DNA from: an uncultured Sphingorhabdus sp.
GTDB lineage: Bacteria > Pseudomonadota > Alphaproteobacteria > Sphingomonadales > Sphingomonadaceae
Direction of reading: 5' to 3'
Length of the DNA: 64,000 bases
NCBI GenBank assembly: GCA_947492905.1
Contig: CANLOL010000001.1
Coordinates: 846,578-910,577 of the forward strand
In this document: positions 13,859 through 45,517 of the stretch, piece after piece
Layout: every line of letters starts with the position of its first letter
Numbering within the stretch: position 1 is the stretch's first letter
Translations under genes and position numbers: made by a program
Notes under the pieces: generated by a model
Told to the model about the DNA's origin: nothing
What the model saw: the letters and a program-made list of their open reading frames with translations, nothing else
Databases searched by the model: none

Positions 13859-14977
13859 TTAGCGTGATAGGGCAGCTGTTGCTATTTTAGAATAAATTAC
13901 TGCTAGCATATCCAAATCTTCGACTTCGGCAGCCTCGTCCAATTTATGCATAGTCGCATTACGCAAGCCAAATTCCACAACAGGGCAGATAGCCGATAAA
14001 AATCGTGCATCGCTAGTGCCGCCGCTGGTTGATAATTCTGTGTCTATACCCACCGTATCTTTTATGGCTTTGCTAATTATATCAGAAAATTCACCGGGGG
14101 GCGTTAGAAAAGGTTCTCCAGAAATGCGCGCTTCTACTGAGCCTCCATATTTTTGGGCTATGGCGCTGATTTGGTCCACCAACTCTTGTCCGCTATGGCA
14201 ATCATTAAATCGGATTGAGAGCCTTGCCTGTGCCTTTGCTGGAATGACATTATGCGCAGGATTGCCAACGGTCAGATCGGTAAATTCAATATTGCTGGGT
14301 TGAAACCAATCGGTTCCCTCATCCAATACAACAGCATCAACTTCGTTCATGATCGCGGTTAATTTGGTAATTGGATTATCGGCCAAATGCGGATAGGCCA
14401 CATGGCCCTGCATACCATCAACTGTAATCCACATATTGACGCTTCCGCGGCGGCCTATTTTAATCATATCGCCTAATTTATTTACAGATGTTGGTTCCCC
14501 TACCAAACATAGATCGGGGACTATATTCTGCTCTTTCATATAACGCATGATGGATTTGGTGCCATAGGTTGCTGGCCCTTCCTCATCACCCGTAATAATC
14601 ATGCTGATAATCCCCTTATCTGATGGGATATCCTCTAATGCTGCAATGAAAGAGGCTATGCTGCCCTTCATATCTACTGCACCGCGTCCATAGAGCAGAC
14701 CATCGCGTATTTCGGGAACAAAAGGATCGCCGGTCCAACCATCGCCGGGCGGCACGACATCAACATGCCCTGCATAGGCAAAGTGCGGGCCGCTTGATCC
14801 GCGAATGGCAAATAAATTCTCAACGGGGCCATCGGGGGCTTCCCCCTCGATAAAACGATGCACATTAAATCCTAATGGCTTTAGGATCGTTTCTAAGCTG
14901 TCAAAAACTTGGCCTGTTGCAGGGGTGACACTTGGGCATATTATAAGCTTTTTAGCAATATCGCAGGCAAGGCTCAT
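13859..14977 (-). CDS. dapE: succinyl-diaminopimelate desuccinylase
   Basis: A zinc-dependent M20-family amidohydrolase of 372 aa that releases L,L-diaminopimelate for lysine and peptidoglycan synthesis. Metal and catalytic motifs are present: FAYAGHVDVVPPGDGW, LYGRGAVDMKGS, ITGDEEGPA, CLVGEPTS and STSGGTSDARF. The start at 14977 overlaps the stop of the upstream gene by four bases (ATGA), so the two are coupled. It is convergent with the Smr gene, five bases away. Confidence 0.95.
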   Translation of the reverse strand: MSLACDIAKKLIICPSVTPATGQVFDSLETILKPLGFNVHRFIEGEAPDGPVENLFAIRGSSGPHFAYAGHVDVVPPGDGWTGDPFVPEIRDGLLYGRGAVDMKGSIASFIAALEDIPSDKGIISMIITGDEEGPATYGTKSIMRYMKEQNIVPDLCLVGEPTSVNKLGDMIKIGRRGSVNMWITVDGMQGHVAYPHLADNPITKLTAIMNEVDAVVLDEGTDWFQPSNIEFTDLTVGNPAHNVIPAKAQARLSIRFNDCHSGQELVDQISAIAQKYGGSVEARISGEPFLTPPGEFSDIISKAIKDTVGIDTELSTSGGTSDARFLSAICPVVEFGLRNATMHKLDEAAEVEDLDMLAVIYSKIATAALSR

Positions 14978-15645
14978 TCGGCTTCCAAAGACTCTATCTT
15001 AGCATCCAAATCTATCATCCGTGTGGACAATACTTCATTGCCTTTATTATAGAGTTCAGGCGTGTCTGGGCCAGCACCTATCTCCTTAAGCTTGGCATCG
15101 CGCTCATATAATAATTCTTCTATCTCATCGCTATAAAGTTGGACCATTGCGGTAATCAGCTTATTGACCAGCTTATCCTCTCTTGTGTCATCGACATTAT
15201 AAAGAGGCATATGATTGGTCATTGTCTTGGCAGGATACATCCATTCATCCGTAACCCAGCGGTTGGTCGTAAACCATTCGCGCGGTATTCCATTTTTATC
15301 AATGGATAGGGCCACCAAATGCGACACACGGGCTTTTTTCTTATTTCTATAATGAACAGGCTTAGCAATGGTGCGTGATGCTTTTTTAATCTGTGTTTTA
15401 TCAAGGAACAGATGGAAATGTCCATGTTCATCGGGACTGCGAGACCCCGGTTTGTGAACATGATAATACCAGCGCGCCTGGCAGCTTTTGCTGCGTGCAT
15501 CTAGTTTGGGATAATGTTCCCACCATTTAATATCATCTTCTGGCAACACGCGTTGCATCAGAGGCTTACCTTCTTGGGCCATGGCCACAATCGTTTCAAT
15601 TACAGTTTCAGCTGCAGCCAATTGCACTTTACGTTTATCTGCCAT
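14974..15645 (-). CDS. conserved hypothetical protein coupled to dapE (possibly DUF6969)
   Basis: A 223-aa soluble protein with no signal peptide. Recognisable stretches are WWEHYPKLDARS, ARWYYHVHKPG, DEHGHFHLFLD, HLVALSIDKNGIPREWF and TTNRWVTDEWMYPA. The histidine-rich HGHFHLF segment could bind metal. I recall similar proteins labelled DUF6969, but I cannot confirm that. A coiled-coil-like C-terminus follows (DEIEELLYERDAKLKE). The stop overlaps the dapE start, so they share a message; no functional link to lysine synthesis is visible in the sequence. Confidence 0.75.
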   Translation of the reverse strand: MADKRKVQLAAAETVIETIVAMAQEGKPLMQRVLPEDDIKWWEHYPKLDARSKSCQARWYYHVHKPGSRSPDEHGHFHLFLDKTQIKKASRTIAKPVHYRNKKKARVSHLVALSIDKNGIPREWFTTNRWVTDEWMYPAKTMTNHMPLYNVDDTREDKLVNKLITAMVQLYSDEIEELLYERDAKLKEIGAGPDTPELYNKGNEVLSTRMIDLDAKIESLEAE

Positions 15646-15755
15646 ATTGAAAACACTCCGAATTATTAGGCCATTATGATATGTGAATAATATAGGGATT
15701 ATTTCATAATTTATAAGCGAAATTTTCGATTAGCTTAATTTATTTATCGCCCATA

Positions 15756-15791
15756 AAAAAAGACGACGCCGTGAAGCGCCGCCTTCTTTTA
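15756..15791 (-). terminator. rho-independent terminator after the Ala/Cys lipoprotein gene
   Basis: A GC-rich imperfect hairpin (GACGACGCCG paired with GCGCCGCCTTC, small GTGAA loop) lies just after the stop at 15807. On the minus strand it is followed by a T run (the A run at 15757-15763). Confidence 0.75.
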
Positions 15792-15806
15792 AATTTAAGC
15801 TAAGCT

Positions 15807-16157
15807 TTAGTTAGCTGCACATGCTGCTGCACAAGCTGCGCCGCATACTGCGTCTTTAGCTGCACAAGCTGCATCGCTAGCTGCACAAGCTGCGCCACAT
15901 GCTGCACATGCCGCGCCGCAAGCTGCACAAGCTGCTGCACATGCTGCGCCACAAGCTGCTGCACATGCTGCACAACCAGCTGCACACGCTGCACAACCAG
16001 CTGCACATGCTGCACAACCAGCAGCACAAGCTGCGTCACATGCTGCACATTCAACAGCACAAGCTGCGTCAGTTGCAGTTTCAGATGAACATGCGCTTGT
16101 TGCGATTGCAAGACCGCCAGCTACTGCTAGCATAGATGCAAGTTTAGTTTTTCTCAT
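15807..16157 (-). CDS. alanine/cysteine-repeat lipoprotein with 3-4-spaced cysteines
   Basis: A 116-aa protein of no family I recognise. The start is the ATG at 16157 with AGGA upstream; an in-frame start at 16238 would put a charged stretch before the signal. Residues 1-23 are an export signal with a probable lipobox ATSAC (Cys23). The mature part is almost only Ala and Cys with some Gly, Asp, Lys and Ser. I count 21 more cysteines, nearly all spaced three, four or seven residues apart (CAAGCAACAAG pattern). In a helix that would put the cysteines along one face, like heptad a/d positions. Lipid-anchored metal binding or a disulfide-linked wall protein are possible roles, but neither is shown. 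The gene has its own terminator and a long upstream gap, and is probably monocistronic. Confidence 0.72.
   Translation of the reverse strand: MRKTKLASMLAVAGGLAIATSACSSETATDAACAVECAACDAACAAGCAACAAGCAACAAGCAACAAACGAACAAACAACGAACAACGAACAASDAACAAKDAVCGAACAAACAAN
15965..16027 (-). repeat. three 21-bp tandem repeats coding for CAAGCAA
   Basis: Three copies at 15965-15985, 15986-16006 and 16007-16027 differ at only a few bases, and each codes for one seven-residue CAAGCAA unit. The near identity suggests recent copy-number change. Shorter, more diverged units flank them from about 15820 to 16070. Confidence 0.85.
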
Positions 16158-16533
16158 TTTTGGTCCTTTCCTTCCTACTCGATCACCACTCATTGTTAAC
16201 AATCGATCAGGGTTTTTTCCTGTACAATCTAAAATCATGGCCGTCGATCGAGTTAAACGCGACCGACGAAACTTTCGGCTACAACACCTTTACGGCTTAG
16301 TATAGATAAAATTTGTTGGAAATTAAGGTTAAATCACTTAAGTTATTCAAAAATAATCATTTTTTATATTGAATAAAATGTAAATTATTTTGCAATTGTG
16401 ATAAAATTTCGAAAAAATAACAATTTTTGAATGAATCGGACGAAGAATGTTCATGATTCATTAAAAGATAAAGCTATGATTCTGATAATTATATTTCAAA
16501 TCCACGCTATATATTTGCAATAGTGATAAGATG
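16158..16533. other. gene-free AT-rich gap upstream of the Ala/Cys lipoprotein gene
   Basis: 376 bases with no supported gene. The side nearest the lipoprotein gene has a short palindrome CGAAA-C-TTTCG (16267-16277) and a possible minus-strand -10 box CTATAC near 16300. The latter would give a leader of roughly 140 bases. The remainder (16320-16520) is very AT-rich with nothing I recognise. Confidence 0.4.
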
Positions 16534-45310: not shown

Positions 45311-45517
45311 ATGAAATTTAATGTGGATAAAATAAGGGATGATATAATCAACCGAAACACGGGACTATATCACCCCATCCCAGATGCGACCCGGGAGCGC
45401 CCATACAAAGGGCATGATGTCCTGATAACACGCAAATCAACAGAGCATCACTATGATATTCGCCATAGTCGTGAAAAAGGTTACGCAATAAAAAACATTA
45501 ATTCCTTTTTCTTGTAA
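45311..45517 (+). CDS. small hypothetical protein, doubtful
   Basis: A possible 68-aa protein from the ATG at 45311 with AGGTGG upstream; an earlier in-frame ATG is at 45287. It is hydrophilic, with many Arg, Lys and His (for example THHYDIRHSREKGYAI with the first T uncertain in position), and no signal or family. Composition is plausible for a real small protein, but there is no other support. Confidence 0.3.
   Translation: MKFNVDKIRDDIINRNTGLYHPIPDATRERPYKGHDVLITRKSTEHHYDIRHSREKGYAIKNINSFFL

Follow-up and report, generated by a model that had tools for sequence, protein, structure and literature searches.

The window, as the whole 64,000-nucleotide stretch analysed here is called, encodes a Cys-repeat lipoprotein directly followed by a gene for the domain protein DUF6969, and we lean, with modest confidence, towards reading the lipoprotein as an exported, lipid-anchored thiol sponge for Cu(I) or other thiophilic metals with DUF6969 as its dedicated maturation or loading partner; the metal binding, the identity of the metal and the chemistry of DUF6969 are the parts of this reading that we infer. 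The two-gene system of a Cys-repeat protein and DUF6969 is widespread and so far apparently undescribed. In the proposed mechanism the lipoprotein would be made in quantity and held outside the cytoplasm by its lipid anchor, where its tail, probably a helical chain rich in Ala, would present about 21 soft ligands, the reduced thiols of which would chelate or buffer Cu(I) or similar ions in the periplasm. The cytoplasmic DUF6969, with its invariant His set, would probably act on the Cys repeats before export, either by modification or by maintaining them in a reduced or loaded state.

The lipoprotein gene and its expression signals

The lipoprotein gene is located on the minus strand (15807..16157; 116 codons for 116 aa), as delimited from its translation and its orthologues. 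An in-frame upstream ORF extension (143 aa) was rejected, being without conservation and having a stop in L004. Residues 1-23 (MRKTKLASMLAVAGGLAIATSAC; 16089..16157, minus strand) comprise a lipoprotein signal that is kept across the family (conserved N-terminus MKKTnFASMLAVAGGLAiATaAC), ends at A22-C23, a lipobox invariant in 17 family members, and has near-identical counterparts, by alignment, in the YHS-linked paralogues described below. The remainder, residues 24-116, is an Ala/Cys low-complexity tail (15810..16088, minus strand), of which 50 residues are Ala and 21 are Cys. Degenerate tandem repeats of 21/33 bp (15813-16034) encode it.

An earlier note, made from the sequence letters, had described this protein as a lipoprotein whose pattern is not known from any metallothionein, wall-crosslinker or redox family, with a signal carrying Cys23 and 21 tail cysteines almost all spaced by 3, 4 or 7 residues. 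This description was confirmed, and the minus strand was added. All 20 Cys-Cys gaps of the tail are of 3 (six times), 4 (twelve times) or 7 residues (twice), while the maximum over 100,000 tail shuffles was 15/20 such gaps. No family match to the window protein was found in Pfam or NCBIfam up to E=1, no PDB chain matched it by sequence, and PADLOC matched nothing. Plotted on a helical wheel, the cysteines give their strongest signal at 100 degrees (R=0.86), and the AF2 model contains two helices, predicted at low confidence (pLDDT 60, pTM 0.35).

The 21-bp tandem pattern occurs in 10.3 copies with a 77% match. Between orthologues the repeat arrays are rearranged but the total length stays nearly constant (113-117 aa), so the earlier suggestion that copy number can change is weakly supported. 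The window tail is under purifying selection: its pN/pS among four orthologues, read with the caveat of a low-complexity alignment, is 0.12-0.35, and the reading frame is kept. Of its Ala codons, 54/56 are GCA/GCT, compared with 55/71 in groEL/ES and 180/347 in average genes of the genome; this bias in the direction of groEL/ES hints at high expression, and repeat expansion could be its other cause.

An intrinsic terminator (15748..15800, minus strand), consisting of a hairpin and a T-run, is located between the lipoprotein gene and the DUF6969 gene, as the earlier note had stated; its hairpin of -25.8 kcal/mol (z -5.9) had been missed by a simple pattern scan. Among 49 distinct loci, 19 have a terminator-like hairpin behind the Cys gene, versus 0/245 shuffles and 2/245 random places, and the order Cys gene, terminator, DUF6969 would presumably yield much precursor and little partner. 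The long upstream gap that the note had also pointed out is real (16158-16533). It includes a conserved leader of ~140 nt (16158..16300, minus strand) with a promoter-like TATACT at its start, present in four Sphingorhabdus-type orthologues only. The signal-peptide codons display little divergence even at synonymous sites (pS 0.09-0.22 versus 0.48-0.76 in DUF6969) and, together with the conserved leader, make RNA-level regulation possible. As a known RNA the leader was rejected, having no Rfam match within the window; as an RNA structure it displays two compensatory pairs, too few to call, among its four close genomes. No further copies of the leader were found in the own genome.

Variation of the tail at the syntenic locus

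The host is a member of the Sphingomonadales, with Sphingorhabdus as the nearest named relatives by organism. A profile search identified relatives in 19/401 genomes of the order, and a scan of named genomes identified 18 loci of the lipoprotein family. The window protein belongs to a group that we define here as DUF6969-linked Cys-repeat lipoproteins, having the signal, the Ala-rich tail and DUF6969 directly downstream. Lipoproteins with the same signal occupy the syntenic place in Sphingorhabdus and in the Erythrobacteraceae, with tails that contain CC pairs, Cys at every fifth residue, or almost no Cys.

Over 43 distinct members, Cys counts range from 23 down to 0 and the Cys gaps are 4 (123), 5 (119), 1 (93), 3 (40), 7 (30) and 6 residues (26). 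Since the spacings differ between members and some tails contain 0-2 Cys, a fixed helical stripe is without conservation outside a small clade, and was rejected as a conserved principle. The claim of the earlier note that the cysteines run along one helix stripe agrees with the helical wheel and a weak AF2 helix of the window protein, but is not supported as the essence of the family; the homologue check that it had proposed returned differing gaps, while its structure check returned a predicted helix. What the family has in common is a chain of small residues with soft ligands supplied at regular intervals, not the stripe.

Cys drops as Glu/Asp climbs (correlation -0.73 over the 43 members), and Met, another Cu(I) ligand, replaces Cys in the Met/Glu-rich tails of two Erythrobacteraceae members (L073 and L077), both of which argue for a metal sponge. 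Against it count the orthologues that are almost without Cys or Met, namely L127, whose Glu-rich tail has 2 Cys, and the L162 homologue with 1 Cys. Such wide drift, including Ala/Glu tails with few Cys, together with the encoding of the tail by repeat DNA, would be expected if the lipoprotein were a structural or surface-anchored, disulfide-crosslinked spacer whose low-complexity repeat tail drifts freely, its cysteines having no specific role. We consider this quite improbable in view of the Cys content of the window tail (~23%, versus 0.6% in neighbour genes), of a tail pN/pS well under 1, and of the independent Cys-repeat families that adjoin the same partner, DUF6969.

DUF6969 and its neighbours

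The candidate dedicated partner, DUF6969 (PF22308; 223 aa; 14974..15645, minus strand), is encoded directly downstream of the lipoprotein gene. It is the next gene downstream, on the same strand, in 18/18 named lipoprotein loci, and this adjacency supports the sponge because it persists despite different flanks (dapE side in Sphingorhabdus, TspO side in Erythrobacter). In the f1-family clade, 48/48 DUF6969 genes are preceded by a homologous gene for an exported low-complexity protein. DUF6969 itself is rare, being found in 38/301 genomes of the order and 19/399 of the phylum. By an automatic rule, 52 of 86 distinct DUF6969 have an exported Cys-repeat neighbour; the same rule applied as a control to other genes of the loci gave 14/100, or about 6/100 without the Cys-repeat genes themselves. 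Fifteen of the 86 were labelled by eye, most of them having a Cys-repeat neighbour or a low-Cys homologue (L155 being ambiguous), and the neighbour ORFs of L065, L131 and L177 were assigned by eye instead of by the rule. The other 19/86, with neither an exported Cys-repeat nor a homologous neighbour, count against the proposed function.

Outside the f1-family clade, elsewhere in the Pseudomonadota, the neighbours of DUF6969 include exported Cys-repeat proteins whose signals and motifs (CNPCAA, CGAKC, PCAAKK) are unrelated, which again argues for a sponge with a dedicated partner. In L102, L103, L145, L147 and L148, CNPCAA-type repeats beside DUF6969 are fused to cytochrome P460 or to a SoxA/TsdA-like cytochrome c. 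In L105 and L141, DUF6969 without a Cys-repeat neighbour adjoins an exported FGE-sulfatase-domain protein (by Pfam match in L141, by eye in L105). On a Burkholderia glumae plasmid (L159, p79s4p) and in L200, DUF6969 and a Cys-repeat peptide are clustered with MTA-phosphorylase-type and arsenosugar-type genes, the latter encoding glycosyltransferases or a radical SAM/DUF3641 protein. Other DUF6969/Cys-peptide pairs are flanked by Sulf_transp, rhodanese and an ArsR-type regulator whose closest resemblance is to BigR.

Clusters of the last two kinds suggest sulfur or arsenic, and to that extent weigh against a copper-type sponge. The pairs beside Sulf_transp, rhodanese and the BigR-like regulator, and the fusions of Cys repeats to SoxA/TsdA-type cytochrome c, would suit a system that handles sulfane sulfur or redox stress, as a persulfide store or thiol reservoir, rather than metal ions. 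This alternative is unlikely: the sulfur contexts occur in distant lineages, rhodanese and SoxA could serve metal stress too, and the contexts in the own genome and at sigma-F promoters are of the bufferin/metal type.

No signal peptide was seen by eye in DUF6969, which is predicted to be cytoplasmic. Its near-universal residues (window numbering) are H44, P46, H62, H64, E73, H74, G75, H76, F77, H78, H109, N128, R182 and D183, of which P46, H62, H76, H78, H109, R182 and D183 are at 100% to rounding. The model of the protein is confident (pLDDT 90, pTM 0.89), but a fold search against the PDB gave no match (best E 2.0, TM about 0.1-0.2), and neither did a viral fold set or a sequence search of the PDB; DUF6969 is also named in no paper of the open-access library searched. 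Judging from secondary structure and conservation, its His-bearing strands may form a metal site. We tentatively suggest, while holding it to be rather doubtful, that DUF6969 represents a new class of metalloenzyme, with a fold without solved relatives, which modifies or loads the soft-ligand repeats of exported proteins and forms with these proteins, across the Pseudomonadota, a counterpart to the MNIO bufferins in metal defence.

In a rival reading the lipoprotein is a RiPP metallophore, DUF6969 being a new metal-dependent enzyme that acts on the exported repeat as MNIO does on bufferins, turning the side chains of Cys (or Met) into modified residues that bind metal. The precursor-(terminator)-partner gene order is that of RiPP operons, DUF6969 is the sole thing common to the unrelated Cys-repeat substrates, and its invariant H62, H76, H78, H109, R182 and D183 and confident model without a PDB fold match also speak for this reading. 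In addition, three relatives with Cys at every fifth residue weakly match CefA (NF038108), a Cys-every-fifth RiPP, at 24-27 bits (cut-off 30). The DUF6969 searches, however, returned no enzyme homologue or catalytic fold, the repeats vary in number and spacing, with Cys absent from some tails, and MNIO, radical SAM and RRE genes are absent beside the window gene; such a modification is possible, though we would not expect it. Membership of CefA itself was rejected, as the window protein gave no match and the relatives, at 24.5-26.5 bits against 30, are sub-threshold, and CefA matches and DUF6969 never occurred in the same genome of the 399-genome sample.

Metal-stress context and comparison with known systems

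The earlier reading overlooked the DUF6969 partner, the YHS-linked paralogues and the metal-stress promoter context. Two paralogues lie side by side in the own genome (L012 9059-10670; C1:2161058-2162669), adjoining ilvC, in an operon composed of a YHS lipoprotein, a YHS protein with a Cys-repeat N-terminus, and a Cys-repeat protein; the second of these is a YHS_seleno protein that shares the signal of the window protein. A copper response was described for the YHS domain of a mycobacterial cyclase (PMC4626032). In the genus, YHS and DUF6969 are found together (8/9; Fisher p 6e-6, uncorrected for kinship), which is a further reason for proposing the sponge. The own MNIO gene (C1:1254926) has its own BufA1 and is located about 390 kb from the window gene. 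BufA1-MNIO-BufC-DoxX has a YHS_seleno gene immediately before it in G022 and G042. In G785 a single cluster joins BufA1-MNIO-BufC-DoxX to a Cys-repeat peptide followed by DUF6969, an association that also favours the sponge.

The own YHS/Cys-repeat operon is preceded by GTAACC-N15-CGAA, and the own bufferin operon, which includes SigF and NrsF, by GTAACC-N16-CGAA. The latter is the motif of the Caulobacter sigma-F regulon, which responds to Cr and Cd (PMC3511200) and is induced by Cu, the sigF mutant being Cu-sensitive (PMC8224329). An exact motif is present within 260 bp upstream of 12/64 Cys-repeat genes near DUF6969 (one mismatch in 0/64), compared with 1.4% of random stretches of the same loci, some of those being identical sites. 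Its presence before both own operons and these 12 genes supports the sponge; its absence upstream of the window gene, where the best match has two mismatches, as in 20% of random stretches, and which has its own, different conserved leader, counts against it. The single exact GTAACC-N16-CGAA match in the window is at 45459-45484 (minus strand), with 0.12 expected by chance. The thiophilic-metal role that the earlier note had proposed fits this genomic context.

By the tests made, the window protein would work like bufferins or Csp proteins, yet belongs to neither. Bufferins (Buf1/DUF2282, Buf2, Buf_EGKCG/oxazolin, CxxxxC) are MNIO-modified exported RiPPs (PMC12452194). Shared with them are the exported precursor with an N-terminal Sec signal (by motif a lipoprotein signal in the window protein) and a Cys-rich mature part, the dedicated cytoplasmic partner, the sigma-F/NrsF context and metal stress, and one cluster (L200) contains both systems. 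In contrast, the window gene has no adjoining MNIO (PF05114) or DUF2063, its partner is DUF6969, its product has a lipid anchor, and no Pfam/NCBIfam match to the precursor families DUF2282, BufA2 or EGKCG was found up to E=1. With Csp1/Csp3 it shares many Cys on helices and export (Csp1), and a Csp-type protein, NGO1701, binds 15 Cu(I) per monomer (PMC12510493); the window protein, however, matches no PDB chain by sequence, appears, as a low-complexity Ala/Cys repeat, not to adopt the Csp fold, and has relatives with non-helical spacings. The YHS domain-containing (seleno)protein family NF041384 is connected to it through the own-genome YHS protein, with its same signal, Cys-repeat N-terminus and adjoining Cys-repeat gene, but a YHS domain is absent from the window protein itself. 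Bacterial metallothioneins resemble it in their many Cys and low aromatic content; the window protein differs in being exported and lipidated, with Ala-filled 3/4 spacing and no MT motif or family match.

That bacteria can survive copper by means of exported Cys-repeat peptides and their dedicated maturases has been recognised only recently. To this route DUF6969 may add a new partner class, as a second, apparently unreported partner tied to many unrelated Cys-repeat proteins. The analysis yields testable loci, residues and one promoter class, and the change of ligand from Cys to Met/Glu within a single locus provides a natural series on what such sponges need.
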